From: Candidatus Cloacimonadota bacterium
Lineage (GTDB): Bacteria; Cloacimonadota; Cloacimonadia; Cloacimonadales; TCS61
NCBI GenBank assembly: GCA_021735645.1
Contig: JAIPGP010000012.1
Span: forward strand, 1 to 56,180
Length of the DNA stretch: 56,180 bases
Direction of reading: 5' to 3'
A model generated the notes under the pieces. It searched no databases. It worked only from the letters and a program-made list of their open reading frames with translations, and was not told the origin of the DNA. Numbering within the stretch: the stretch's first letter is position 1; every line of letters begins with the position of its first letter. Position numbers and translations under genes: made by a program. Positions 695-26,467 of the stretch are shown piece by piece.

Positions 695-3600
695 TAACCA
701 ACACCTTATAGGTCTGATTAAAAGCCCTGGGAACGAGGAGTTCCAGCTCCTCGACCAAGTTTCAATTCCTTAAAGGTCTGATTAAAAGTGGCATATAATA
801 CTTTGGAAAGAGCAGTTCAAAGGTTTTAATTCCTTAAAGGTCTGATTAAAAGCTTATTGATTTCCATCCCTCACTTGAGTGAGATCGTTTCAATTCCTTA
901 AAGGTCTGATTAAAAGTTTGAGTGAGAGAAAAATAAGTGATAAACAGTTTAGTTTCAATTCCTTAAAGGTCTGATTAAAAGTGCTGTCATGTGTAGCATC
1001 TCCAGGATCTGCGAAGTTTCAATTCCTTAAAGGTCTGATTAAAAGACGCTTGTATGACCATCACCACCATAATAATCCCTGTTTCAATTCCTTAAAGGTC
1101 TGATTAAAAGTCAAATCAGGAGATATCGCAATTCAACCAGATTAGTTTCAATTCCTTAAAGGTCTGATTAAAAGTGCAACTGTGTGCTCTAATGCACGGA
1201 ACAGTTCTTGTTTCAATTCCTTAAAGGTCTGATTAAAAGCAGGAATTAATGAATAAGGGTTGGGAGAAAAGCTAGTTTCAATTCCTTAAAGGTCTGATTA
1301 AAAGGGCACTGTATAGCACGCTCTGCGACCCGAATATTCTTGTTTCAATTCCTTAAAGGTCTGATTAAAAGTATACCTGGCTGTCTTCATCATAATCTAA
1401 TTTTATGAGTTTCAATTCCTTAAAGGTCTGATTAAAAGCTGGATTTCCGGCATTATTACCAAAGCTATAAACGTTTCAATTCCTTAAAGGTCTGATTAAA
1501 AGATAGATATCCCGCTGTTAACTGCAATATCCATCACTGTTTCAATTCCTTAAAGGTCTGATTAAAAGGGGGTGATGTTAAGATCGAGGGGATAGAAGAC
1601 CTGTTTCAATTCCTTAAAGGTCTGATTAAAAGTTTTAGTATCTAATTTACTCTTTATAAGCAATTAAGTTTCAATTCCTTAAAGGTCTGATTAAAAGCTT
1701 TCCGTTCATATCCCCATGGTATAGGCTATATTAGTTTCAATTCCTTAAAGGTCTGATTAAAAGAGAAATTCATAAGAAGAGGTGATAGTGGGATTTTAGT
1801 TTCAATTCCTTAAAGGTCTGATTAAAAGCTGCGAGACTTCCAAAGTGCGCTTGTGGGCAATCAGTTTCAATTCCTTAAAGGTCTGATTAAAAGATTGGCA
1901 AGAATGCAAAGGACAGCCCTACATTCAAGTTTCAATTCCTTAAAGGTCTGATTAAAAGGGTTCTGGATTTCCTGGCGTTTATAGTACCTTCTGGGTTTCA
2001 ATTCCTTAAAGGTCTGATTAAAAGACATGACCAAGATTAACCTGCTAAATGCTGATTTGTTTCAATTCCTTAAAGGTCTGATTAAAAGCCCAGTTCGGTA
2101 CATCAGTCGCCACTACCAGTATTGTTTCAATTCCTTAAAGGTCTGATTAAAAGATTTGCGGGATTTATTGAAAAGGGCTGGATGAAGAGTTTCAATTCCT
2201 TAAAGGTCTGATTAAAAGTATTTGAGCAGTTTGGAGACGGCGATATCGGATTCGTTTCAATTCCTTAAAGGTCTGATTAAAAGATCTAAACAACTAAGTA
2301 ATATAAAGTAAAAAGAAGTTTCAATTCCTTAAAGGTCTGATTAAAAGCATGTTGCTTTGTCTCTTCCTGCTTTTAATCTTCCGTTTCAATTCCTTAAAGG
2401 TCTGATTAAAAGACCTTACTCGGCTTGCCGGCTTCTTCGGGTGGGTGGGGTTTCAATTCCTTAAAGGTCTGATTAAAAGATGTTGCTTTGTCTCTTCCTG
2501 CTTTTAATCTTCCGTTTCAATTCCTTAAAGGTCTGATTAAAAGACACTTGTGTCTTTTTTTTTAGAACAATATTCCCCCGTTTCAATTCCTTAAAGGTCT
2601 GATTAAAAGTTCAGTTGAAATCTCACATTAAAGAGTTTTTCCGTTGTTTCAATTCCTTAAAGGTCTGATTAAAAGGTACTCCGGCAAGCCCGGAGCCGGC
2701 AAGACCGTACTGTTTCAATTCCTTAAAGGTCTGATTAAAAGATGAGCCACGACGAGCCCGGGCTTGCCGGTACTCGTTTCAATTCCTTAAAGGTCTGATT
2801 AAAAGGAAATGAACAGAGTGGAAGTGTTTGCCAGGTGTTGTTTCAATTCCTTAAAGGTCTGATTAAAAGTTATATAATGTACGGGCAGCAGCCAGTTCCC
2901 GCTCCTGTTTCAATTCCTTAAAGGTCTGATTAAAAGCCTTAGCGAGGCAGACCTTAGCGAGGCAAACCTTGTTTCAATTCCTTAAAGGTCTGATTAAAAG
3001 GATGACATCGTGTAAGGTATACATGGACTTTAAACGTTTCAATTCCTTAAAGGTCTGATTAAAAGCAAGACGCCTGTGAATTCTCTGGAATAGAAATGCC
3101 GTTTCAATTCCTTAAAGGTCTGATTAAAAGGGTCGTTAGGACAGAAATATACTAAAACATTTTATATGTTTCAATTCCTTAAAGGTCTGATTAAAAGAGG
3201 CAGAGGATAGGATTCACAGAATAGGACAGAAGTTTCAATTCCTTAAAGGTCTGATTAAAAGGAAGTATCTGTTTGACACCTATAACAAGATTGAAGAGTT
3301 TCAATTCCTTAAAGGTCTGATTAAAAGTATTATTTGTTGGGTATTTCATGTACTCTTCCCAGTTTCAATTCCTTAAAGGTCTGATTAAAAGCCAGAAGGC
3401 ATTAGAATACTATCAGGCACAAGCAGGTTTCAATTCCTTAAAGGTCTGATTAAAAGACACATTAGCTATAGTGAAATATACGCAGAATTTGTTTCAATTC
3501 CTTAAAGGTCTGATTAAAAGCAAAGCAGGGAAAATGTGTCAAGTTTTTTCTCGTGTTTCAATTCCTTAAAGGTCTGATTAAAAGGGATATCTGCAGAGTT

Positions 3601-6600
3601 ACATGACCGTGGGATTTGCAAGTTTCAATTCCTTAAAGGTCTGATTAAAAGGAATACAGGAAAATCCCATGTTTCCTCAAAACGGGTTTCAATTCCTTAA
3701 AGGTCTGATTAAAAGGGAGATTGGGGAGCTGAGCGAGAAGCCGGTTAAATTGTTTCAATTCCTTAAAGGTCTGATTAAAAGTCGTCAGAAATACCGGGAT
3801 AATGCAGTAAGAGGGAGTTTCAATTCCTTAAAGGTCTGATTAAAAGACTTTGTCTTTTCAACCTGGAAAGGAATCCAGGTTCGTTTCAATTCCTTAAAGG
3901 TCTGATTAAAAGAGTCTGCTGTTTTTTATGGTGTTGCTATGTCAAAATGTTTCAATTCCTTAAAGGTCTGATTAAAAGGGACCTTAGTAGCTGGCACCAC
4001 TGACGCACATTAGTTTCAATTCCTTAAAGGTCTGATTAAAAGTGGAACGTGCTGAAAGATCGTCAAACAGCACTTGGGTTTCAATTCCTTAAAGGTCTGA
4101 TTAAAAGGCGGTTATCTGTATCAGCTAACGTCTTTATTTCTTCGTTTCAATTCCTTAAAGGTCTGATTAAAAGTGGAGCTACTGCTGGTCAGTACACACC
4201 AGTAGCTGCGTTTCAATTCCTTAAAGGTCTGATTAAAAGGAAAATTATGCCTCTTGTAAAACCTACATTAACTGGGTTTCAATTCCTTAAAGGTCTGATT
4301 AAAAGCTTGTCACCTGCATCGATATCATCTAATGTGATAGGTTTCAATTCCTTAAAGGTCTGATTAAAAGTAGAAACTGCACCTTTATGGGTATGAAAAT
4401 TGCAAGTTTCAATTCCTTAAAGGTCTGATTAAAAGCAATACTAAGCAGCATTACACTGCTTGGTGAAGTGTTTCAATTCCTTAAAGGTCTGATTAAAAGT
4501 GTTACAAACATGATAAGAGTTGAATAGGTTATGAAGTTTCAATTCCTTAAAGGTCTGATTAAAAGTTCCGGCAGCGCTGGCAACCCAAATAAAATATTTC
4601 TGTTTCAATTCCTTAAAGGTCTGATTAAAAGACGGAATTGTAGGCATGTGTAGTGCTTATGGTTTGTTTCAATTCCTTAAAGGTCTGATTAAAAGAGATA
4701 TATATCCAGTTATCGCAAGATATGAAGATATGTTTCAATTCCTTAAAGGTCTGATTAAAAGAGACACACTGCACTTGATATGATTAAGGCAAGATAGTTT
4801 CAATTCCTTAAAGGTCTGATTAAAAGTGGATTGTCAACTGAATTATTATACTTTGTTACAATGTTTCAATTCCTTAAAGGTCTGATTAAAAGATCATTTA
4901 TAGGAACAAGCAATCTTTATTATGCTAGTTTCAATTCCTTAAAGGTCTGATTAAAAGCTTTCTTCTTCCATTGCTATAGCACTGAGGAAAAATGTTTCAA
5001 TTCCTTAAAGGTCTGATTAAAAGATAGATAAGTTTGAAGTCCATATTATAGAATTTTGAGTTTCAATTCCTTAAAGGTCTGATTAAAAGGAAGATAGTGA
5101 GAATATAATATTATCAAAATCTTCGTTTCAATTCCTTAAAGGTCTGATTAAAAGCCGACTAACTTAGCCATTAGGCCTCCTTTTTTATAGTTTCAATTCC
5201 TTAAAGGTCTGATTAAAAGTTAATTAACCCATCGGTAGTTATATCATACATAAGTTTCAACTCCTTAAAGGTCTGATTAAAAGTCATTAACTGCTGCCCA
5301 TCAGTTCAGAGATTTTCGTTTCAATTCCTTAAAGGTCTGATTAAAAGATGAACCTGTGTTATAACAGAGTGATATTCGAGTCCAGTTTCAATTCCTTAAA
5401 GGTCTGATTAAAAGTTATTTACAACCAGGCTTTCATTACCATACAGCGGTTTCAATTCCTTAAAGGTCTGATTAAAAGGGCATTATAAGATTGAGACGAA
5501 GCGCACTAACACGCGTTTCAATTCCTTAAAGGTCTGATTAAAAGACGTTTTATAATGAAATACCGGAGACGGCATAATCGGTTTCAATTCCTTAAAGGTC
5601 TGATTAAAAGAGCATTTATGCAGGCAGGCTTGGTTATAGATGGAAGTTTCAATTCCTTAAAGGTCTGATTAAAAGGTATTACCGGCATTGACAGAGAGCG
5701 TTCGGTCTTGTTTCAATTCCTTAAAGGTCTGATTAAAAGTATAATCATGTCTGTGTTTATGAAGACGAAGATGCGTTTCAATTCCTTAAAGGTCTGATTA
5801 AAAGCAGAGATCGTGCCGGAGGCAGCTACAGGATTTGAGTTTCAATTCCTTAAAGGTCTGATTAAAAGTAAATATAGGGGTAGTCGTCAAACCAGTCTAT
5901 GTGGTTTCAATTCCTTAAAGGTCTGATTAAAAGCATTAAATTCAATCATAAAACCTCCCAGTTTTAAGGTTTCAATTCCTTAAAGGTCTGATTAAAAGAA
6001 CCTCTTTTAGTTAGTTCTACCACCCAAAAATATGTTTCAATTCCTTAAAGGTCTGATTAAAAGTTTAACCTGTTCAGCTTTAATGGCTTTGTGACTAGTT
6101 TCAATTCCTTAAAGGTCTGATTAAAAGCTTGGCCAACCACTCCTTACGCTACTGACGCTCTATAGTTTCAATTCCTTAAAGGTCTGATTAAAAGGCTGTC
6201 ATACTTTTTTGGCAGCTCAAAGGGAAGCAGGTTTCAATTCCTTAAAGGTCTGATTAAAAGTTGCAGGAGGTGCAGGAGCAGCAGACGTATTGCGGTTTCA
6301 ATTCCTTAAAGGTCTGATTAAAAGGCTACCCTCACTTACTCAAGCGGCTCTTATACTGCGTTTCAATTCCTTAAAGGTCTGATTAAAAGCCGGAACTGTT
6401 CCACTGCCACCCCGAGTTTTGGGGTTTCAATTCCTTAAAGGTCTGATTAAAAGATAGACTGGTTTGACGACTACCCCTATATTTATATGTTTCAATTCCT
6501 TAAAGGTCTGATTAAAAGAAAATAACATCCTTGTCCCTGTTGTCTTTAAAGGCGTTTCAATTCCTTAAAGGTCTGATTAAAAGTCGCATTCGCTCAATTA

Positions 6601-6980
6601 TCCCACCCACCCACCAAAACTGTTTCAATTCCTTAAAGGTCTGATTAAAAGACTTGAGAGACTGTACTCAGTCTTATAAACTAATGTTTCAATTCCTTAA
6701 AGGTCTGATTAAAAGCGCATTCGCTCAATTATCCCACCCACCCACCAAAACTGTTTCAATTCCTTAAAGGTCTGATTAAAAGAAAATGCCTAAATCCTAC
6801 ACTCCTTTAATTACTATGTTTCAATTCCTTAAAGGTCTGATTAAAAGATTAATTTCACCGTTATCTCTATTCATCTTTATTTCCGTTTCAATTCCTTAAA
6901 GGTCTGATTAAAAGAGAAATGCCTAAATCCTACACTCCTTTAATTACTATGTTTCAATTCCTTAAAGGTCTGATTAAAAG
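695..6980 (-). CRISPR. Type I-B CRISPR array, 97 repeats and 96 spacers, transcribed on the minus strand
   Basis: A 30-bp repeat begins GTTTCAATTCC and ends GGTCTGATTAAAAG on the plus strand. It alternates with spacers of 34-38 bases; I counted 96 spacers by hand. Read on the minus strand the repeat ends in ATTGAAAC, the usual Cas6-generated 5' handle, so the crRNA precursor is made on the minus strand. The leftmost repeat (695-724) is degenerate except for its last 21 bases (20 of 21 match), as expected for the trailer end. The last repeat (6951-6980) abuts the leader and is perfect. Two internal repeats carry a single substitution (823-852 and 5254-5283). The newest spacers should be those near 6900. 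Three near-duplicate spacer pairs and one opposite-strand pair are described in the findings. The array follows cas2 directly, in the same orientation. Confidence 0.98.
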
Positions 6981-7180
6981 CCTCCACTTATATGAATAAA
7001 AATTAGCTTATACCGGGTATTTATGTCAACAAAAAATATTAATATTCAGCGTCGATGTATAATCATGCTAAAATTCCCCTTGAGCGACGATTCCCCTTTA
7101 TAAGCTTATTTGATAGTGAAAGCTGTCACATTTATCACATTATTCAAATCTAAAGAGCCTGTAAAAATCCTCAGCGACGA
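6981..7180 (-). promoter_or_regulatory. CRISPR leader between cas2 and the array
   Basis: This AT-rich 200-bp stretch lies between the cas2 stop and the first perfect repeat, at the leader-proximal end inferred from repeat orientation. The 9-base word AGCGWCGAT (plus-strand reading) occurs three times: 7048-7056, 7083-7091 and 7173-7181. The last copy overlaps the cas2 stop codon. Such recurring words in a leader may be binding sites for the integration machinery or a transcription factor, but that role is inferred. The array promoter should lie here and read leftward. I could not pick out one convincing -35/-10 pair. Confidence 0.75.
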
Positions 7181-7444
7181 TCAAATAAAATTATCAAGAG
7201 GATTAAATTCTTTTCCTAAAGTTTCACTTTTCAGCATCTTAGCCGAGTTTAACTTAAAGAAAAGCACCTGATCATAATCCTCATCAATAATTTCAAATAA
7301 TTCCATTTTCAATTTCTCCAACTGAGCTTTCGTAATATCACCCATAAACACAGAATTCTGTATCCAGGTGAGGTATTTTCTAAAAGTCTTCAAAACTTTG
7401 GCAACTCTTTTTTCTCCAATATCGTAAGCAGCTATCACGTGCAT
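7181..7444 (-). CDS. cas2: CRISPR-associated endoribonuclease-fold protein Cas2
   Basis: Cas2 is the small structural partner of Cas1 in the spacer integration complex. The 87-residue protein starts MHVIAAYDIGEKR, the typical first beta strand with the conserved Asp of the family. It continues with the WIQNSVFMGDI segment seen in many Cas2 proteins. I chose the ATG at 7444, two bases after the cas1 stop. A GTG at 7453 would overlap cas1 and add MVI; the family pattern favours the ATG, which has a GGTGAT ribosome site just upstream. The gene is last in the cas operon and is followed by the leader and array. Confidence 0.93.
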   Translation of the reverse strand: MHVIAAYDIGEKRVAKVLKTFRKYLTWIQNSVFMGDITKAQLEKLKMELFEIIDEDYDQVLFFKLNSAKMLKSETLGKEFNPLDNFI

Positions 7445-7446
7445 GA

Positions 7447-8439
7447 TCACCACCAGATCCTGAAAGCTTCATATTCCTGTTTTTCGATCAGAAATTTGAT
7501 CAGTTTATAGCATTCCAGCCGAATCAAATAGCGATATGAGATATGCCTTTTCAATTTGCGATGCATAATTGTCTGCTCAAGCTGGCTGTCAAATTCCCGC
7601 ATAAAAACCTTCCTGGCTTTATCTTTCATATAGCAGAAATTAAGGGTTTTATCGAAATCCTTTTCCGTTATCATATTCCTGTTCAGTACCCGAAAAATTA
7701 TGCGGTCAACTAATAAAGGTTTAAATATCTCCGAAATATCAAGAGCCAGCGAATATCTCCGGTAGCCGGGTTTATGCAGAAAAGAAATCGTAGGATTTAA
7801 CTGAGTTTTAAATATCTCACAAAGTGTGGTTGTATATAACACAGAATTTCCAAAGGAGATCAAAGTATTGATCATATTATCCGGTGGTCTTCGCTTTCTG
7901 CCACTGAATTCTATTTCCTGATCAATGATTATCGGAAAGGTTTCATAATAATTCTTTCGTAGATTTCCTTCATAACCCATGATCTCATCAATAGATTCTG
8001 CCCTGTCAAGTCCCTCCGCCAGATCAGATATAAGCGTGATATGATTCGATAAATCCTTGCCCCGATTAGTATAATATTTAAGATTCTTCAAAATATTATC
8101 AGTAGTAGCCTTCAAGGTCTCCCTTGCCAAACCCAAACCACTGCTCGGAACTGTAAATTTCTTTACCTGCTTCACCAGAACTTCTCCTGCCAGCAAGGAT
8201 TCCCGGGGAACAAAACTGCCACTATAATAACCGTAATAATTGAATACATGCAATAATATATCATGTTTATCCAGAAAACACAACAATTTTGTATTCAGAT
8301 CAGTTTCTCCAAATAAATAGATATTTCTCACTGTTTCAATGGGAATAACTTTCTTCTCGCCTTCCTCATTGATCAGAAAAAGGGTATTATCCTTCCTCTT
8401 CAACCTGCCATTAGAAAATATATAAAAATTCCGCTCCAT
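7447..8439 (-). CDS. cas1: CRISPR-associated endonuclease/integrase Cas1 (type I-B)
   Basis: Cas1 is the metal-dependent integrase that inserts new spacers at the leader-proximal repeat. At 330 residues it has the normal family length. The N-terminal beta domain (MERNFYIFSNGRLKRK) is followed by the helical catalytic domain. The metal-site residues are visible: Glu in MGYEGNLRKNYYE, His in SFLHKPGYRRYSLALD, and the acidic patch around LALDISEIFKPLLVDR. It starts eight bases after the cas4 stop with an AGGATG ribosome site, and cas2 follows directly. Cas4, Cas1 and Cas2 therefore form one adaptation module at the promoter-distal end of the operon. Confidence 0.95.
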   Translation of the reverse strand: MERNFYIFSNGRLKRKDNTLFLINEEGEKKVIPIETVRNIYLFGETDLNTKLLCFLDKHDILLHVFNYYGYYSGSFVPRESLLAGEVLVKQVKKFTVPSSGLGLARETLKATTDNILKNLKYYTNRGKDLSNHITLISDLAEGLDRAESIDEIMGYEGNLRKNYYETFPIIIDQEIEFSGRKRRPPDNMINTLISFGNSVLYTTTLCEIFKTQLNPTISFLHKPGYRRYSLALDISEIFKPLLVDRIIFRVLNRNMITEKDFDKTLNFCYMKDKARKVFMREFDSQLEQTIMHRKLKRHISYRYLIRLECYKLIKFLIEKQEYEAFRIWW

Positions 8440-8447
8440 AATTCATC

Positions 8448-8945
8448 CTATATATAGCATAGATCATAATAACTGCATTTCTGACAAATCCTGGCGTTTT
8501 TCACTCCAGGCACTTCCTCTCGCTGGATTATCTCTTTTATAGCATTGATAATCTCTTCAATTCGCTCTATATCTCCATTTTCCAGATCAATTCTGACTGT
8601 CTGCTTCAATTTTGGATAATTGATCATCCCATGTACATTCTCTATTCTCTGGCATTGCAGGTAATATAGATAATATTTCAATTGCCAGATATGTGCCTCT
8701 TCCACTGCCGGAGTTTTCTTCACCTCATGCACCACTCCGTCATTCCCAATAAAATCTATCTTGATCGGACCTATCTGTATTTCCTTCTTCTCCCGCTGAT
8801 AGCTTCCTTCATGGATAAGTTTCCCCAATTCCACCAATTCCGAAGTATGCTCCATATTGATCTGATGACTAAAAAGCCAAAGCTCTCTTTTGCATACAAA
8901 ATAATAATTTATTTGCGTTCCTGTTATTATTAATTCATTTAACAT
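8448..8945 (-). CDS. cas4: CRISPR-associated exonuclease Cas4
   Basis: Cas4 is a RecB-like, iron-sulfur nuclease that trims prespacers and helps select the PAM. The 165-residue protein shows an N-terminal cysteine in the YYFVCKRELWLF segment and a C-terminal cluster (ARICQKCSYYDLCYI), together the four cysteines expected to hold a 4Fe-4S cluster. The nuclease core has the Asp of KIDFIGND and the EVKK of VVHEVKKT. An early His in LIHEGSYQREK matches the family. The start has a GAGGT ribosome site. About 118 bases containing a hairpin separate it from cas3 upstream. Confidence 0.93.
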   Translation of the reverse strand: MLNELIITGTQINYYFVCKRELWLFSHQINMEHTSELVELGKLIHEGSYQREKKEIQIGPIKIDFIGNDGVVHEVKKTPAVEEAHIWQLKYYLYYLQCQRIENVHGMINYPKLKQTVRIDLENGDIERIEEIINAIKEIIQREEVPGVKNARICQKCSYYDLCYI

Positions 8946-9063: not shown

Positions 9064-11412
9064 CTAACAGAAATTATCAATTAATTCTATATCACAGTAT
9101 TCCATTGTTAGTATTCCTACATTACTGTCATATTTACACTTTGCAACAAGTACATCTTCAATAAGAAATTTATCATTTCTATTCCTGACAACTCTCACTT
9201 TTTCTACTCTACTGCCTTCCTTATGATGTAATAAACTAAGATATGTGGATTGAGATAAACTGATTAAGAAACTTTCTGCTTCAATAATATTGCCAGCCTC
9301 CAGATATTCAGTATAATCCCTAAATAATTCAGCAGGCAATACTTTAACTCCAGTAAATATTTCATAAAAACTATCTTCACTTTCTTGATTAAAACAATAG
9401 GGTTGTAATGCTGAAAGTGAAGACCTGAATAATTCCAATATTTCTTTATATTCTTTTTCGTGCTCACTCAACCATTCTGGATATACTTTATCAATGTAGT
9501 CCTGTAATTTAGATTCCTTAATTGTATCTATTTTTCCTAATAATTCTAAAGTCCTTCTTGTGAATATTTCAGGATATATTTTCTTATCATACTTTGACCC
9601 TTCACTGCATATTATCACAGAAGCAGGATTCTCATTCATTCCTTTTCTGTTTATCCTGCCGAATCTCTGAAGTAAAGCGTCAATTGGCGCTGGTTCTGTT
9701 ATCATAAAATCATAATCGATATCAAGACTTACCTCTATTGCCTGAGTTCCGATCAGGATATCGGTAGATTGATCCAAAGCATCTTTCTCTCTATCCATCC
9801 TATCTTTACCTGTAAAACGGCTATGTAGTAAACTTATTTTCTTATAAGGAAATAATTCCTTGATTTTTTTATAACATTTCTGTGACCTAATCACTGTATT
9901 ACAGACTATGATTGTTCTCTTATCCGTAATATTATCCATCCATGTCTTATCAATTACCGTAAATATATCACCTTCCATAATTTCCACTTTATGTCTTTCT
10001 ATTTTTTCTAAGTACTCTGTTTCAGGTCGTATGGTTTTTAGGTTCATGATAACTTTCTCAATTTCTTTGTACATAAAGGATGGCAAAGTTGCGGTCATAA
10101 TAAAAACTTTACAATTAAATCTTTTCGTTAATATCTCCAGCATTATTATGATCTGAGCAAAAGTTTGTACATCGTAAGCATGGATTTCATCTAATATTAA
10201 ATATGAACCGCATAAATTGACAAAACCAATCTCATAACCTTTTACACCAAAAAAATACTTCAGTATCTGGAATGGCGTCAGTACTTTCAAAGGATGTACC
10301 ATCTTATGATATATTGCTGTAATATCCTGCAAATTACTTCCAATGTCTTCTTCATCTATTAGACTATAAACATACTGCTGTAATTTCCCATGCTGAATCC
10401 CCGCTTTTTTTGATTTCAGCGGATTATCAACTCCCTCCAGACTATATGCCAGCCTCTTATGCATCGCATTAATTGAGGCAGTATATGGTAAAATGTAATA
10501 TACTTTGCCTGCTTGTCTTTTGTGCTGATTTCGCAACCAGCCCAAAGCACTTTCAGTCTTTCCAGCTCCTGTTGGTGCCACTAATACTACATTCGATTCA
10601 GTTTCCCAGGATATTCTCTGATGCTTATAAGGCTCTGAAATTTTATCTATAAACTCGAAATCATTATTAGCCAAAACCGGAATTTCTTTGATTTTTGCTG
10701 ATCCATAATGATCACACATCTTCAGTGAACCCCAGAAAACCAACTCCTGATTATTCGCCATTATGTTTGTGTTCTCGTTTTTCCAACCCAAAACCATACT
10801 CTCCACTGGGTGGGGAATATCTTCATAGAGAATTTGTTTCATAGGAATTTTAATGCCATATAATTGCATTTTTCTAATAATAAAATTGATGAATTCTATT
10901 AGCAAATCTTTGTTAAAAAGTTTAAGATTTTGCCAATAATCTTCAGGATGATGACTTATATTTTCAAATTGCCAAAAAGTTAAATACTCATTTTTTATTT
11001 GTTCGCTGTTTTTATACTTTTCTAATAACTCCTGATAGGTTTTGTGATGTCCTAATATAGCTCTCTGTATCAGTTCTAATTGATTATCTTCAAGACAGAG
11101 TTTATAAGTAAAAGCTAATGAATATATCTCATGTCTTTGCTGTTCCCAATTATTCTTCGCTTTATTCAATAATTTCTGAAATTCTGGATGGATTTTCCCC
11201 ATATCATGAAACAAAATAGCGGTTTTCAATATCTGAAAATAATTGGCGATACCTGCAATACTTGAGATTTCAGGTATCGCCCTTTCGATCTGATCTGCAA
11301 TTACTAAGCAGTCATCTACATGCTCTTGTAAAGATGTCCCATCTGATTTTGCCAATATCATGAGTACTCTTAACAATTTTCTAAGACTATCAAATTTCCT
11401 GCCAATATACAT
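9064..11412 (-). CDS. cas3: CRISPR-associated nuclease/helicase Cas3 (HD plus DEAD helicase)
   Basis: Cas3 is recruited by Cascade to degrade the target DNA. The N-terminal HD nuclease has H31 (LQEHVDD), H69-D70 (ILFHDMGKIHPEF) and H122-H123 (ILGHHKT). The superfamily 2 helicase follows, with Walker A (APTGAGKTES, about residue 285), the DEIH box (ILDEIHAYD, about 405), TATLP, and motif VI (QRFGRINRKG). Its 782 residues fit a fused HD-helicase Cas3. The start used overlaps cas5 by 23 bases. An ATG at 11361 (MILAKSDG) would avoid the overlap and matches the usual N-terminus of the family, so the true protein may be 17 residues shorter. Confidence 0.95.
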   Translation of the reverse strand: MYIGRKFDSLRKLLRVLMILAKSDGTSLQEHVDDCLVIADQIERAIPEISSIAGIANYFQILKTAILFHDMGKIHPEFQKLLNKAKNNWEQQRHEIYSLAFTYKLCLEDNQLELIQRAILGHHKTYQELLEKYKNSEQIKNEYLTFWQFENISHHPEDYWQNLKLFNKDLLIEFINFIIRKMQLYGIKIPMKQILYEDIPHPVESMVLGWKNENTNIMANNQELVFWGSLKMCDHYGSAKIKEIPVLANNDFEFIDKISEPYKHQRISWETESNVVLVAPTGAGKTESALGWLRNQHKRQAGKVYYILPYTASINAMHKRLAYSLEGVDNPLKSKKAGIQHGKLQQYVYSLIDEEDIGSNLQDITAIYHKMVHPLKVLTPFQILKYFFGVKGYEIGFVNLCGSYLILDEIHAYDVQTFAQIIIMLEILTKRFNCKVFIMTATLPSFMYKEIEKVIMNLKTIRPETEYLEKIERHKVEIMEGDIFTVIDKTWMDNITDKRTIIVCNTVIRSQKCYKKIKELFPYKKISLLHSRFTGKDRMDREKDALDQSTDILIGTQAIEVSLDIDYDFMITEPAPIDALLQRFGRINRKGMNENPASVIICSEGSKYDKKIYPEIFTRRTLELLGKIDTIKESKLQDYIDKVYPEWLSEHEKEYKEILELFRSSLSALQPYCFNQESEDSFYEIFTGVKVLPAELFRDYTEYLEAGNIIEAESFLISLSQSTYLSLLHHKEGSRVEKVRVVRNRNDKFLIEDVLVAKCKYDSNVGILTMEYCDIELIDNFC

Positions 11413-12037
11413 CCCACGTCGTGTTTTTATCTATAGTATCAGTAAATCCCTTAGCATTAACAGCTACTCTGGATTGATAATCTATTATGTAATATGGTTG
11501 AGTATCAATATTTTTTCGCGGAATTTCATTACTAAAATCTACAGGTAATGCCTGCAATGGTGCAGCAACCTGATGTCTCTTAAATGGTATAAGAGTTCCT
11601 TTTACATTGGAAAGCTCTTCTTTTTCTACAATATCAAGCTCCATTATTGATTTAACAGATACCAAATCTCCTGATCTACCTAATAGCAATTGAAAAACCG
11701 GTCGGCTTAAATAACCAGAAATATCCTGAGAATCTGTATATAGATAAAGGTCAATATCGTGGAGAAATTCTCGCTTTATTACATTGGATTTTATATCTTT
11801 ATTCTTATCAGCCGGTTTCTGATAGATTGTCTCCAAATCTGTATTCTTAGAGCTGTAACGAAAAACATAACCGATTTTTTCTGTGCTTATATGAAATGCA
11901 TCACCTTTAGCGGCAGATATCAATCCCATTATCGTTGATAAGGGAGGAACGACTAATGTCGGCTGATAACCACTGATCATATTGGGATACCGAAAAGAGG
12001 ATGTCCATCCCGTTAAATTAATGCGATAGACTTTCAT
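11390..12037 (-). CDS. cas5: Cascade subunit Cas5 (type I-B, Cas5t-like)
   Basis: Cas5 is a RAMP-fold Cascade subunit that caps the 5' handle of the crRNA. The 215-residue protein begins MKVYRINLTGWTSSFRYP and then has VVPPLSTIMGLISAAKGD, the N-terminal pattern of Cas5 in Cst-type I-B systems. It starts four bases after the cas7 stop, with only a weak ribosome site, so translational coupling is likely. Its 3' end overlaps the longer version of cas3. Confidence 0.9.
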   Translation of the reverse strand: MKVYRINLTGWTSSFRYPNMISGYQPTLVVPPLSTIMGLISAAKGDAFHISTEKIGYVFRYSSKNTDLETIYQKPADKNKDIKSNVIKREFLHDIDLYLYTDSQDISGYLSRPVFQLLLGRSGDLVSVKSIMELDIVEKEELSNVKGTLIPFKRHQVAAPLQALPVDFSNEIPRKNIDTQPYYIIDYQSRVAVNAKGFTDTIDKNTTWDVYWQEI

Positions 12038-12041
12038 CTTA

Positions 12042-13088
12042 TTAATCCAAAGAAATTGTTTCTATAAATGAATCAATTATCTTGTTTACTGGACCAAATT
12101 CGATTCTTCCAGCTTCTGATAATTCCTGAAGCTGATCATCTAAATCATCCATGAATCCCTTTCTTTTTCCGATAAACACTTTTCCAGAAAATTGCTCTTG
12201 ATAATCCTCAATAACCTCGATAAGAGCATTTACTGAAAATACCGGTATTCCTTTCTCTTCTTTTGCTAAGTGTGAAAAGGGATGATTACCAGTTTTAAAC
12301 TCAGCCAGGACAATAAGCTTAGGTGTTACATCGGCCAGGTTTGTAGTCTGCTTTGCTCCTCCAGATAATGTCTTCAATGCAGACAAAGTTTCTTGAATTC
12401 GCTTCAATCGGAGTACTTTAGGTAATTCTACCAGTTTTATCGGATTCCCTTTTTTATCTTTGGCAATCGGATCATCTACAAGAATTGCTCCTTCTTCTAA
12501 ATACTTTTTTCGCATCTCTTCATTAATATTGACATATCCGGTTCTGTTTTGCTCCGAAAACCTCCCAACCATATCTAAATTCAAAGAAAACATCCCTTTC
12601 ATTACAGCACAATATTCATCAATTCCAAATGGAACAGCATCTCCATCCTGACGCGTCATTGATGCCCAATTCTGTACTATCGGATTATACGCAACTCCAA
12701 TTAAAGCAGAATTTTTTAAAGGCGATACCCTGGTTAAGGTTATATTTTCCTTTTTCACTTTTTTTGTCTTAAGATCTTCAACTTCTTTTGTGCCAGCTCT
12801 CATATATCCAAAAATATCATCATCAGGGTATTTCATAGGCTCCGCTTCTGTAAATGCTATCTTTTTTTCTCGGATAACTGGTGACATTACCCATTTGAAC
12901 TGATGAACTAATGTTTCCCTCCACCAATAACGCCACGCCTGACCGGATACATATGGATACTCCCTGTTATTCTTTCTAATTTTCTTTGTTACTACTCCAT
13001 TATCTAATTTTGATGATGGATCACTTCCGGCATTATTTAATGCCGCTACATCTACTTCAATTAACATAAATCCCTGTATTGTCTTCAT
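12042..13088 (-). CDS. cas7: Cascade backbone subunit Cas7 (Cst2/DevR family)
   Basis: Cas7 subunits polymerise along the crRNA spacer to form the Cascade backbone. The 348-residue protein starts MKTIQGFMLIEVDVAALNNA. It has the YPYVSGQAWRYWWRETL segment and the SPLKNSALIGVAY segment typical of the Cst2/DevR branch. A flexible insertion rich in Lys (about residues 105-117) follows the region where family members differ. It begins eight bases after cas8 with a strong AGGAGG site. Confidence 0.92.
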   Translation of the reverse strand: MKTIQGFMLIEVDVAALNNAGSDPSSKLDNGVVTKKIRKNNREYPYVSGQAWRYWWRETLVHQFKWVMSPVIREKKIAFTEAEPMKYPDDDIFGYMRAGTKEVEDLKTKKVKKENITLTRVSPLKNSALIGVAYNPIVQNWASMTRQDGDAVPFGIDEYCAVMKGMFSLNLDMVGRFSEQNRTGYVNINEEMRKKYLEEGAILVDDPIAKDKKGNPIKLVELPKVLRLKRIQETLSALKTLSGGAKQTTNLADVTPKLIVLAEFKTGNHPFSHLAKEEKGIPVFSVNALIEVIEDYQEQFSGKVFIGKRKGFMDDLDDQLQELSEAGRIEFGPVNKIIDSFIETISLD

Positions 13089-13096
13089 TCTTCCTC

Positions 13097-14467
13097 CTAT
13101 ATTCCTTCGTTTTCTTCTAATGGTTCATTTATTTGTTCCACATCATCTATATCGATTTTTATCCTTCCTGAATGAAGTTTCTCATACAGGAACACTAATA
13201 ATAAATCTCTTATTTCTCCCCAGTACTGCCCATCAGGAAATAAATAATTTACCCATTCGTCAAACGTTACTATCGTCCGCTCATTACCTGTCGTGTAGTT
13301 CTTTTTGATGATATTCAATATTGCTGTCCGTAACTGATAAGCTTTGGTTGCTCCTTCCAGTTTGACCATGTACTTCTTGAAATTATTTTCCTGCTGCATA
13401 ATTTCAAAAATTCTGCCTCCTACACTTTTAATCAATGAAATTTGTTCACTTGTCATTCCTTTAACCTCCTGAACATAATAAATAGCGATCCTGCTATCAA
13501 TTGTTTTTTCTTTTATTAGTTGTTTCTTGCTATACCTAACTAAACTCGGTAATATGCTCTTACCCTCTAAAAGTGAATTAAAAATACTGTTGGTATGGTT
13601 GCGATATTCATCTTCTTCAACAGGTTCTCCCTTTTTCTCCCACCTGTCCGTTTCATCATTCCATTTTGCTCCGCCAATATGATAATTTCTGTAAATAAAA
13701 TTATACCATTCCCTGGCTGATGTCTTTAAAACTAAATTTATGAACCTGAAAACAGGATTCGGTATTGTAGATATTTTACAATCTACAGAGGAACTGAAAT
13801 TAGTAAAGTGATACATGGTAATATGTTCAGACTCCAGTTTATAATCGCAGGCTGTTATCAATTCTGAAGCAAAATGGAATATGGCATTGCTGGCTCTGGT
13901 GAATTTTGATTTCAAGATCGTTTCTGAACTGCCCCGACTTATTCTATTCAGATTTTCCTGTACAGTTTTGTGCTTCCAGTACTCATTTCCTTCTTCAGTT
14001 ATTGTTTGCAATAAACAAAGATTGCCCATCTGCAAGACAGCGAATGGTAAGAAAAAGTATTTTTCTGCACATTCAGGACATATCATTATTCCAGATTCAT
14101 GAGAATGATGAAAATTCACAAAGGCTTTTGATCCCGCTAAACAAGTCTGATCCCTTCCTGCATCTGTAAGAAATGCCTCTTTACCACAAAATCTGCAATA
14201 TCCTTCATTATTACTACTATTTTTTATTTCTTTAAATTTGGATATTGTAGCCGTGACTTTCTCAGCTCCCTGTTTGGAATTATGAGTGATAGATGAATTT
14301 AAAAATATGGCATCAATTTTTGCTCTCCACTTTTCTACATAAATTTTTGCTGCCCATTCAATCAACTCATCAATGCTTTTTTCTGGAAACTGTTCTGAGA
14401 TATATTCCAGAGCCATTCCTCCTGCATCAATAAATGGGTCTCCAGTTCTTTGAAATATGTTTTCCAA
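13097..14467 (-). CDS. cas8b: Cascade large subunit Cas8 (Cst1, CXXC-CXXC family)
   Basis: The large subunit recognises the PAM and recruits Cas3. The 456-residue protein has a two-part zinc-ribbon signature: CRFCG near residue 92 and CPEC near residue 132. This defines the Cst1 'CXXC-CXXC' proteins, usually placed with subtype I-B. The start codon is TTG at 14465-14467, four bases after a perfect AAGGAGG site; the next in-frame Met is 17 codons downstream. The ribosome site sits immediately after the cas6-like fragment, and the same stop/ribosome-site/TTG arrangement is echoed after the intact cas6. This is a clue to how the DUF1016 gene entered the operon. Confidence 0.88.
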   Translation of the reverse strand: MENIFQRTGDPFIDAGGMALEYISEQFPEKSIDELIEWAAKIYVEKWRAKIDAIFLNSSITHNSKQGAEKVTATISKFKEIKNSSNNEGYCRFCGKEAFLTDAGRDQTCLAGSKAFVNFHHSHESGIMICPECAEKYFFLPFAVLQMGNLCLLQTITEEGNEYWKHKTVQENLNRISRGSSETILKSKFTRASNAIFHFASELITACDYKLESEHITMYHFTNFSSSVDCKISTIPNPVFRFINLVLKTSAREWYNFIYRNYHIGGAKWNDETDRWEKKGEPVEEDEYRNHTNSIFNSLLEGKSILPSLVRYSKKQLIKEKTIDSRIAIYYVQEVKGMTSEQISLIKSVGGRIFEIMQQENNFKKYMVKLEGATKAYQLRTAILNIIKKNYTTGNERTIVTFDEWVNYLFPDGQYWGEIRDLLLVFLYEKLHSGRIKIDIDDVEQINEPLEENEGI

Positions 14468-14676: not shown

Positions 14677-15738
14677 TTATAATACTTCGATCATCTTCTT
14701 TTCAGATATACGATTTTTAACATAAATCAGCGCATTGTGCAGTTTTTGTTCTATTAGTTCCTTGGGTGGAAGTTTCGTCCAAAACTCAGCAACCATAATA
14801 TTGTCTCTTTGCATATTCAAAAGTTCCACCTGTTCAGTACCGGCTTCTGTACATAAAATTAATCCAATGGGAGACTCTTCTCCTGGCTGCCTTTCGTATT
14901 TGTCCAGCCAGTTCAGATATAGTTCCATTTGTCCCTTAAACGCGGCTTTAAATCTATTGATCTTGAGTTCAACAGCTACCAGTCTATGCAACTTTCTATG
15001 ATAGAAAAGTAAATCAAGATAGAAATCCTCACCATCAATGATCATCCTTTTTTGTCTTTCCACAAAAGTAAAACCGTTTCCAAGTTCCAGAATAAACTGT
15101 TCCAATTCTTTAATAAGTGCTTTTTCAAGTTCATTTTCTAAGTAGTCATCATTGAGACCTAAGAAATCAAGAAAATATGGGTCTTTGAAACTACCTTTCA
15201 ATTTGCCATGATCGCTTAATTCAAGTTTATTGTCTGCAATTTCTGCACGTTCAAAGGCTTTTCGTTCTATCTGTTTTTGCAGTTCCCGTTTACTCCAGTG
15301 GTTCTCTATTATTTTATCAATATAGAATTTCCTTGCTTCGATGTTTCTCAAAGGCAGTAACACAATAAAATGAGTCCAACTCAATTGTGACACCAGTGGT
15401 GACAAAATCTCACAGTCAGAAAATTTTTCTGAAAACTGCATCATTCGACGAAGGTTTCTTACTTCAAAACTTTTCCCATAAAGCATAACTAATTGTTCCG
15501 CAATAGAAGCAACAACTTTCTTTCCATATTCAGCTCTTTTGTAACTGAGAATCTCTTCATTTATTCGTTTTCCTATATGCCAGTAAGTAAGAGTAAGAGC
15601 ACTATTAACAGCTACATTGGCTTGATTTCTGCCTTTTTCTATCAGAGCTTTTAAGTCTCTCAACAGTATTGAATTATTAAACTCAGTAATTATTCTGGTC
15701 ATGTTGTTATTTGACATAATTACATTTCCCGATAACAT
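14677..15738 (-). CDS. DUF1016/YhcG-type PDDEXK nuclease inside the cas operon
   Basis: The 353-residue protein has the two-domain YhcG layout. The N-terminal helical DUF1016_N region has ALTLTYWHIGKRINEEI, then LSWTHFIVLLPL. The C-terminal PDDEXK nuclease domain has FYLDLLFYHR, then LVAVELKI (the D...E-x-K core), then FKGQMELYLNWLDKYE. Family members are found alone or beside restriction systems; no role in CRISPR is established to my knowledge. It sits between cas6 and cas8 on the same strand, flanked on both sides by the cas6 3' end. The first ATG (15738) is used. A second at 15717 (MSNNN) with a GGGA site is an alternative, giving 346 residues. Confidence 0.88.
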   Translation of the reverse strand: MLSGNVIMSNNNMTRIITEFNNSILLRDLKALIEKGRNQANVAVNSALTLTYWHIGKRINEEILSYKRAEYGKKVVASIAEQLVMLYGKSFEVRNLRRMMQFSEKFSDCEILSPLVSQLSWTHFIVLLPLRNIEARKFYIDKIIENHWSKRELQKQIERKAFERAEIADNKLELSDHGKLKGSFKDPYFLDFLGLNDDYLENELEKALIKELEQFILELGNGFTFVERQKRMIIDGEDFYLDLLFYHRKLHRLVAVELKINRFKAAFKGQMELYLNWLDKYERQPGEESPIGLILCTEAGTEQVELLNMQRDNIMVAEFWTKLPPKELIEQKLHNALIYVKNRISEKKMIEVL

Positions 15739-15761: not shown

Positions 15762-15853
15762 CCTCCTTATACCTCTTTCACCATACCAAATCCGGCACTG
15801 TTCAATTCACCAAAACCGCAGTTATAGCCGATTTTTATCAGTTCTTTGTCTGC
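15762..15853 (-). repeat. 92-bp direct repeat: end of intact cas6, also at 14472-14563
   Basis: This is the 3' end of the intact cas6 plus its downstream AAGGAGG. It is repeated at 14472-14563 with about five differences, and the two copies flank the DUF1016 gene. The similarity runs on, with a 2-base indel, into the TTGGAA that begins cas8. Recombination between the copies would remove the nuclease gene and restore a simple cas6-cas8 junction. Confidence 0.9.
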
Positions 15854-16537
15854 TTTGATCTCAAATGGTGATTCCATCGCTTTTATCTTTAAGCCATCTT
15901 TGAAAATGATCAATTTACTGATCCTGCCCTGCTTCCGGACTATGTATCCGGCATCAAAACTGAACTCAAAAACTGTGTCACCACTGAATTCCTCTCCATG
16001 TATCTGCTGATACTTCCGCTGCAGATTATTCCTGATCGCCTCCACAAATTCTTCCCGCTCCTCCGGGATCATATAATCAAAATAATGCTTACCACTCTCC
16101 CCCGTCTTTGATACTGTGATCGGCGATAAACAACTGAATTTCATTTCTTTACTGAAATCCGGTTCTTTCGCAGTTTCTACATGGACGATATTGATTCTAT
16201 TTCTCTGCCTAAAATTTAATTCCAGAACCTGATCACTGAATATGCCTAAAACTACATGCTTAAAACTCTCCTCCACCTCCGTAGAAAAATATAATTCCAT
16301 TTCCTTTACATCCATAAATCCCGATCTTGTCTTTTTACAATTATTCATTAGCAATCTGGAAAAAGTAAATAATTTTAATTGCTTCCCCGTATTATCAAAT
16401 CCTTTGTCATGCAGAATGCTGCTGTATTCCAGAGATGATTTACTGATGATGGCATAAATAGCTGACTGTAACTGATATTGATAATTATAGGGTATAAATA
16501 TGCCTGTTTCACTCTCTAAATACAGTTTTAATCGCAT
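15767..16537 (-). CDS. cas6: CRISPR RNA-processing endoribonuclease Cas6
   Basis: Cas6 cuts the precursor transcript within each repeat to leave the 8-base ATTGAAAC handle. The 256-residue protein has the tandem ferredoxin-like RAMP layout: an N-terminal MRLKLYLESETGIFIPYNY and the C-terminal glycine-rich loop ([13 protein letters not shown]). A likely catalytic His is in the N-terminal half (for example HDKGFD or the later HVV), but I cannot assign it with certainty. It is the first gene of the cas operon, with a GGAGAAAG site upstream. Confidence 0.92.
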   Translation of the reverse strand: MRLKLYLESETGIFIPYNYQYQLQSAIYAIISKSSLEYSSILHDKGFDNTGKQLKLFTFSRLLMNNCKKTRSGFMDVKEMELYFSTEVEESFKHVVLGIFSDQVLELNFRQRNRINIVHVETAKEPDFSKEMKFSCLSPITVSKTGESGKHYFDYMIPEEREEFVEAIRNNLQRKYQQIHGEEFSGDTVFEFSFDAGYIVRKQGRISKLIIFKDGLKIKAMESPFEIKADKELIKIGYNCGFGELNSAGFGMVKEV

Positions 16538-16871
16538 ATCTCAGCTTTCTCCTTCCTAGTTTAAAATAAAATTTCCCAATAAATATTACCTGCTTAAAGT
16601 TGAATCTCTGCTTTTTTTTAAATCTTATCACCGATTGCCAGATTAACTGTCCTATTTGTGAAACTCCGAGTTATCAGTAAAATGCGTGGCAAAAAAACCC
16701 TGAGCTTGGGCAGATCACTGGCAATAAAGTTTACCGTGTTGAATAACAGTTTTAATACTTCAACTTTCAATGATGTTCTCCCTACTCATTTATTGATACA
16801 TGTCATACATAACATTTTCAAATTATCTGTCAAATTTTTTGCAATTTTATTTCATTACCCTACCAATAATC
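16538..16871. promoter_or_regulatory. Non-coding region upstream of the cas operon
   Basis: This AT-rich stretch lies between the 5' end of cas6 and the repeats at the 3' end of polA, both on the minus strand. It must hold the promoter for the cas operon unless transcription reads through from polA. I did not find one clear promoter. Nothing coding is visible. Confidence 0.4.
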
Positions 16872-17011
16872 TTCTCCCCTTCTCCCCTTCTCCCCTTCTC
16901 CCCTTCTCCCCTTCTCCCCCTCTCCCCTTCTCCTCCTCCAACCTTCAAACCTTCAAACCTTCAAACCTTCCAACCTTCAAACCTTCCAACCTTCAAACCT
17001 TCAAACCTTCC
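16872..17011. repeat. Two adjoining octanucleotide tandem repeats next to the polA 3' end
   Basis: About seven units of TTCTCCCC (16872-16929) run into about nine units of AAACCTTC or CAACCTTC (16939-17011). Both have an 8-base period although the unit sequences differ. The tract ends 10 bases from the polA stop codon. The plus strand is pyrimidine-rich, so a polA transcript reading through would be purine-rich. Apparent reading frames here are artefacts of the repeat. Confidence 0.9.
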
Positions 17012-25731: not shown

Positions 25732-26020
25732 AACCGCTACAACTCCTGGCTTACTCCCCCTGCTTAATTCTTAGCCTCGCGATGTTGTAATGGATTTTGC
25801 CAGATAATTTCAGTAGTTGTCCTGTGGACAGAGCAAACTTTGAGGACTTAGCTGACATGGGTAGAGTGTTGCTTCGTCCTGCTTACATCGTAAATGTTAT
25901 TTATTTGTAGCAAATCATCACCACACAAAAATACTTTACCCAACCAAGTCAGAAGTTATGAACGATACTCCGGACAAGACTTCGACAATTTCTACCTGTT
26001 AGTGTTTGATCGCAGCTAAT
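25732..26020. other. Non-coding region with copies of a dispersed repeat module
   Basis: No gene is seen. The stretch 25935-25978, read on the minus strand, matches 36267-36309: both follow the pattern CTTGTCC, GAGTA, CGTTCA, CTGACTT, TGGGTAA. This places the same repeat in two intergenic regions 10 kb apart in opposite orientation. Confidence 0.6.
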
Positions 26021-26400
26021 CTTACATTACATTCTGGTGTAAGTTGTAAATTCTATCTCACCGGATACGGATCGACACATTAACACGGTTTATGCACTCC
26101 ATATCTCGTTCCGAGTACGGTTCTCCCGATACATCGGGATGGCCTGGTTGCGTTCTTCACGTTACTTTTTTCCGTGTGGTCAGTGACGTCCGTGGTTAAA
26201 AAATCTTACATTGCATTCTGGTGTAAGTTGTAAATTCTATCTCACCGGATACGGATCGACACATTAACACGGTTTATGCACTCCATATCTCGTTCCGAGT
26301 ACGGTTCTCTCGATACATCGGGATGGCTTGGTTGCGTTCTTCACGTTACTTTTTTCCGTGTGGTCAGTGACGTCCGTGGTTAAAAAATCTTACATTGCAT
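26021..26400. repeat. 184-bp tandem duplication in non-coding DNA
   Basis: Units 26021-26204 and 26205-26388 are nearly identical, and a third unit begins at 26389. Each unit starts CTTACATTRCATTCTGG. It contains CCGAGTACGGTTCTC followed by the small palindrome around GATACATCGGGA. It ends in a CCGTGTGGTCAGTG block and a TTAAAAAATC tail. The parts recur elsewhere in the window (236-305 and 36175-36206). The unit has no reading frame and no obvious transposon ends. Confidence 0.9.
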
Positions 26401-26467
26401 TATCTGCGACTATCCGCCCAATCCGTCTAATCCGTGTTCCACATTTTCTTATCATATCACTAAGTAT

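Follow-up and report, generated by a model that had tools for sequence, protein, structure and literature searches.

A CRISPR-Cas locus in an uncultured Cloacimonadota genome

The window analysed here, a stretch of 56,180 nucleotides, belongs to a metagenome-assembled genome of an uncultured member of the Cloacimonadota that comprises 151 contigs. Positions 759–6980 hold a CRISPR array on the minus strand, with 96 copies of the repeat GTTTCAATTCCTTAAAGGTCTGATTAAAAG and 95 spacers of 34–38 nt, transcribed from the high-coordinate (leader) side. On the minus strand the repeat reads ...GGAATTGAAAC, and the cas operon lies past the high-coordinate end of the array. Since the repeat reads in this way on the strand of the cas genes, the leader is placed by its position at about 6981–7180 (minus strand), where it would separate cas2 from the newest repeat. 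The spacer at 6915–6950 is accordingly the newest. Spacers are counted from this side. The trailer end is marked by a decayed repeat at 695–724. No copy of the same repeat was found in 98 relatives, and hence there is no sister array for comparison.

The genes beyond the array follow one another on the minus strand in the order cas2, cas1, cas4, cas3, cas5b, cas7, cas8b1, a YhcG-family gene and cas6. The adaptation module adjoins the array and consists of cas2 (an open reading frame at 7181–7453; PF09827, E = 9.5e-23), cas1 of type I-B (7447–8439; TIGR03641, 443 bits, above the cut-off, and PF01867) and cas4 (8448–8945; PF01930, E = 2.6e-56, and TIGR00372). The cas1 gene is the only match to cas1 in this genome. 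A Cas3 nuclease-helicase with HD and helicase domains is encoded at 9064–11412 (TIGR01587 and TIGR01596, both above the cut-off). A Cas8b-type large subunit (cas8b1, Cst1, 13097–14467; TIGR01908) is accompanied by Cas7 (Cst2/DevR, 12042–13088; TIGR02585) and Cas5 (cas5b, 11390–12037; TIGR01895) of the I-B type, all three above the curated cut-offs, and cas6 (15767–16537; TIGR01877) also exceeds its cut-off. Judged by these profile matches, the system is a type I-B CRISPR-Cas system with a complete predicted set of cas genes.

Several other features of the locus were observed. The YhcG-family gene, a predicted PDDEXK nuclease, lies at 14677–15738 on the minus strand between cas8b1 and cas6; a tblastn search of related loci returned no match for it, and cas6 lies next to cas8 in the close relative L060. 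Between cas6 and a DNA polymerase I gene, 16871–17010 holds two small arrays of 8-bp repeats (CTTCTCCC and AACCTTCA), and the intergenic region at 26018–26401 contains 2.1 copies of a 184-bp unit with 98% identity. Within the array, which is otherwise AT-rich, the neighbouring spacers 65 and 66 (2676–2775) are GC-rich and have a 13-nt inverted similarity (CCGGCAAGCCCGG). Spacer 62 (2937–2970) is itself a 15-nt tandem repeat. The trailer end (695–758) holds, besides the decayed repeat, a 96th spacer (GGAACGAGGAGTTCCAGCTCCTCG), and contig C42 of this genome carries a similar sequence, with 6 mismatches in 34 positions.

Near-duplicate spacers with one common end

Three pairs of spacers are nearly identical, namely 1 and 3, 4 and 6, and 69 and 71, and each pair encloses one unrelated spacer. 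All of these spacers are on the minus strand. The newest pair consists of spacer 1 (A', 6915–6950, 36 nt, ending ...GGCATTTCT) and spacer 3 (A, 6783–6817, 35 nt, ending ...GGCATTTT), separated by spacer 2 (B, 6848–6884). Immediately behind it, spacer 4 (C', 6716–6752, 37 nt) and spacer 6 (C, 6584–6621, 38 nt) flank spacer 5 (D, 6652–6685). The third pair lies deep in the array, with spacer 69 (E', 2480–2513, 34 nt) and spacer 71 (E, 2348–2382, 35 nt) on either side of spacer 70 (F, 2413–2449). Starting at the leader side, the two members of a pair are identical for 34, 37 and 34 nt, respectively, and the far ends differ by 1 nt in length. Spacer 6 is spacer 4 with one additional A at the 3' end, and spacer 71 is spacer 69 with one additional 3' G. 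The pair 1/3 is less simple, as its 3' ends are TTTCT in spacer 1 and TTTT in spacer 3. Plain trimming of spacer 1 is expected to leave TTTC, so that a second variant of the source or a point change is needed. Either trimming combined with one transition or the deletion of one base close to the end would account for the difference.

An all-against-all comparison of the 95 spacers found no further same-strand pair with at least 12 nt in common. Spacers 8 (6454–6488) and 17 (5869–5903), both on the minus strand, form an inverted pair; the reverse complement of spacer 8 overlaps spacer 17 over 32 nt with an offset of 3 nt, which indicates a fourth site sampled twice, in opposite orientations. Part of the sequence shared by spacers 8 and 17 (ACCCCTATATTTA...) resembles a dispersed host repeat that is found at 558–580 and on other contigs, in some cases near contig ends. 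The original prediction had listed the three near-duplicate pairs, and on re-inspection and in the all-against-all search their coordinates, their common leader-side end and their single separators agreed exactly; the inverted pair was absent from its list.

Searches for the sources of these spacers returned nothing credible. Exact-core scans against IMG/VR covered the protospacers of A, C and E, the separators of two pairs, and spacers 8 and 17, and the whole array was compared with phages and plasmids. The weak matches in the protospacer scans cover repeats, low-complexity sequence or other arrays. In the host's own genome no spacer has a full match outside the array, the resemblance of spacers 8 and 17 to the dispersed repeat being partial.

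One-sided length differences in the surveyed arrays

The pattern was examined in a survey of 147 arrays with 8,153 spacers from 118 loci, from which repeats of the same array had been removed. The arrays came from named contigs and whole genomes, mostly of Cloacimonadota, Poribacteria, relatives of Brocadia, Nitrospirota, Clostridia and Thermoanaerobacteria. They adjoin a cas1 of the I-B type almost throughout, a few being next to cas1 of other subtypes. Pairs within an array that were separated by an edit distance of 1–4 were treated as near-identical and classed by the site of the difference. A terminal difference in length was found at the 3' (PAM-distal) end in 30 pairs and at the 5' end in none (two-sided sign test, about 2e-9; 9e-10 for 31:0). 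Length alone differed in 23 of the 30, and the remaining 7 carried one or two substitutions besides. There was no bias as to whether the older or the newer copy is the longer one (17 versus 12). The other near-duplicates comprised 7 pairs with one or two substitutions only, 4 of equal length with three substitutions, and 4 of other kinds, only one of which had a single internal indel, in a homopolymer within a duplicated block. One apparently 3'-fixed pair in array L243 was rejected as an exception, as its repeat, when read in the opposite orientation, ends GGAATTGAAA; the re-oriented pair is 5'-fixed.

The identity of the fixed end was approached through spacers that partly overlap, each of which supplies the flank of the other. 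Among overlapping same-strand spacers of the survey a CCN flank occurred at the 5' side in 7 of 19 cases and at the 3' side in 0 of 18 (Fisher p = 0.008). CCN is the PAM family shown for the type I-B system of C. difficile (PMC8406132). In published work on systems with Cas4, this enzyme cuts the prespacer at its PAM end, whereas the opposite end is trimmed by a nuclease that acts independently of sequence (PMC10504553; PMC6519985). The CCN on the 5' flank, taken with this end processing by Cas4, suggests that in these arrays the PAM lies at the fixed end and that trimming accounts for the variable one. The suggestion in the original prediction that the pairs share their PAM side thus gains support from the survey. 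For the present array, none of whose spacers had a credible protospacer match, a PAM at this end and a single source for A and A' are inferred.

According to the survey, arrays of this type generally show the one-sided signature, and their re-captured spacers lie close together. With a probability of roughly 0.85, each of the three pairs represents two separate captures of the same foreign DNA, made in bursts, with the order left to chance. Under this scheme the end away from the PAM would be set by nuclease trimming and by a ruler that leaves a tolerance of about 1 nt, and two captures of one site would have one end in common and differ at the other. During a burst several spacers would be taken from one invader or from close relatives, placing re-captures near each other in the array. 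Repeated capture of one prespacer with variable trimming of the far end, as first proposed from the three pairs, fits them and generalises: the presumed PAM-side end is common and the far end different in 3/3 pairs here and in the 30:0 asymmetry over 8,153 spacers.

The alternative that survives best, although it is very improbable, is that the contig merges the arrays of co-existing strains, each with a spacer from the same hot prespacer, and that the assembly itself created the A-B-A' order. The sequence does come from a metagenome-assembled genome in 151 contigs, and two of the three pairs are at the leader end, the part of an array that varies most between strains. However, the pair 69/71 is deep in the array, and several of the 30 length-variant re-captures are in assemblies that consist of single multi-megabase contigs (L188, L190, L199, L209, L213, L215 and L219). 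Moreover, differences of one base at the ends of spacers are not produced by de Bruijn errors. Even a merged assembly would leave the case for re-capture unaffected, because the population would in any event contain both A and A', the products of two captures.

A second alternative is that slippage or recombination copied units of the array and that single deletions and point mutations then altered the ends of the spacers. Duplication of units is certainly present in the survey, in which exact duplicates are common (126 pairs) and often in blocks (68 of the 126). Arrays L172 (spacers 18–28) and L181 (spacers 132–143 and 207–243), of the class Thermoanaerobacteria, contain repeated multi-unit block duplications, the exact-copy counterpart of the re-capture signature. 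SpacerPlacer, moreover, merges spacers that differ by one edit as mutated copies and classes most events as duplications, its counts for CRISPRCasdb being 695 duplications against 8 reacquisitions (PMC11472070). Yet duplication copies whole units, and A-B-A' would require the loss of the second B besides. Here the lengths differ in 3/3 pairs and the neighbours are not duplicated. In the survey all 30 length-variant pairs are isolated and none is in a duplicated block. Mutation would not confine changes in length to one end, yet they fall at the 3' end in 30 pairs, at the 5' end in none and internally in 1. Re-capture is preferred to mutated duplicates because mutation after duplication would not pick the same end every time. 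We therefore consider it extremely improbable that the pairs are altered copies, and the doubt that the original prediction cast on simple tandem duplication was well placed.

Spacing of the pairs and comparison with known systems

If the spacers were in random order, the probability that all three pairs stand at lag 2 would be 9e-6, and the near-duplicates are thus neither chance matches nor randomly scattered. Re-captures cluster at short lags, however, which makes random order an unsuitable null. Lags of 7 or less accounted for 12 of 30 pairs against 3.35 expected (p about 1.5e-5), in a set that includes a pair from L126 with a 5-nt difference and leaves out the re-oriented pair of L243; the final set has 11 such lags. 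Its 30 lags are 1, 1, 2, 2, 3, 3, 3, 4, 5, 5, 7, 9, 13, 14, 15, 15, 16, 17, 21, 28, 32, 33, 39, 51, 55, 71, 72, 73, 118 and 119. In array L101 four re-capture or overlap pairs are found inside spacers 101–123. The density of re-captures in the present array, 3 in 95 spacers, is high compared with 0.37% in the survey (Poisson p = 0.005). Given clustering, the probability that three short lags agree is about 0.02 (uniform on 1–7) to 0.04 (empirical), or 0.005 for lag 2 specifically, and in a block of A, A, B, C, C and D in random order 16 of the 180 orders place both pairs at lag 2.

It has been considered whether a mechanism of this lineage favours A-B-A', for instance by the rapid loss of adjacent duplicates or by the alternating integration of two linked prespacers. 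Lag 2 is common to all three pairs, of which two follow directly on each other at the leader end, and further length-variant cases of A-B-A' are found in a Cloacimonadota genome (L128, spacers 7/9) and in L182 (spacers 82/84). Against this, lags 1, 2 and 3 are represented by 2, 2 and 3 of the 30 survey pairs, with neither an excess at lag 2 nor a depletion at lag 1, and the conditional probability of about 0.02–0.04 applies to a pattern chosen post hoc. It is very improbable that a property of adaptation of this kind makes A-B-A' the preferred outcome of re-capture in this lineage, and such a mechanism is slightly less probable still as the explanation of the three pairs.

In the comparison with random order that the original prediction proposed, the A-B-A' spacing does exceed expectation, but the excess at lag 2 is much weaker once clustering is allowed for. 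Its suggestion that the order needs an explanation of its own is not supported by survey lags that range from 1 to 119 and include 2/30 at lag 2 and 2/30 for adjacent A and A'. No special mechanism is required for the lag-2 order, because the pattern was chosen post hoc. A burst that draws repeatedly on a small pool of prespacers would sometimes yield A-B-A', and the threefold recurrence is most likely a coincidence within bursts.

In a limited search of the literature outside subscription journals, no paper was found to report such a one-sided signature of length for standing arrays. A difference in length that is restricted to the PAM-distal end provides a simple test to distinguish re-acquisition from duplication in such arrays. 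This end-asymmetry test suggests that some of the events classed as duplications by SpacerPlacer are reacquisitions. Of the 171 near-identical pairs in the survey, counted up to an edit distance of 4 and with exact copies and block duplicates included, 30 show the re-capture signature, compared with the 8:695 ratio of SpacerPlacer, and current counts of re-acquisition for such arrays may therefore be too low. The clustering of re-captures at short lags also provides a means of recognising bursts of infection in natural arrays.

Among known systems, the hot protospacers seen in adaptation experiments with the type I-B system of C. difficile (PMC8406132) are similar in that one protospacer is taken up far more often than others. 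There, however, the effect was seen across a population of arrays and was dropped as possible amplification bias, whereas here it is seen within one array. Spacer duplication by replication misalignment, the class recognised by SpacerPlacer (PMC11472070), likewise produces near-identical spacers in one array, but its products are exact copies of entire units, frequently grouped in blocks; the present pairs change length at one end and their neighbours are single. The closest likeness is to re-acquisition in type I systems with processing of the PAM end directed by Cas4, which has in common with the present pairs a fixed end on the presumed PAM side, a non-PAM end that varies by 1–4 nt, repeated capture, and clustering in array time. 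The present case differs from it in that re-acquisition is deduced from a standing natural array rather than from a protospacer or an experiment, and in that three pairs have an equal lag.
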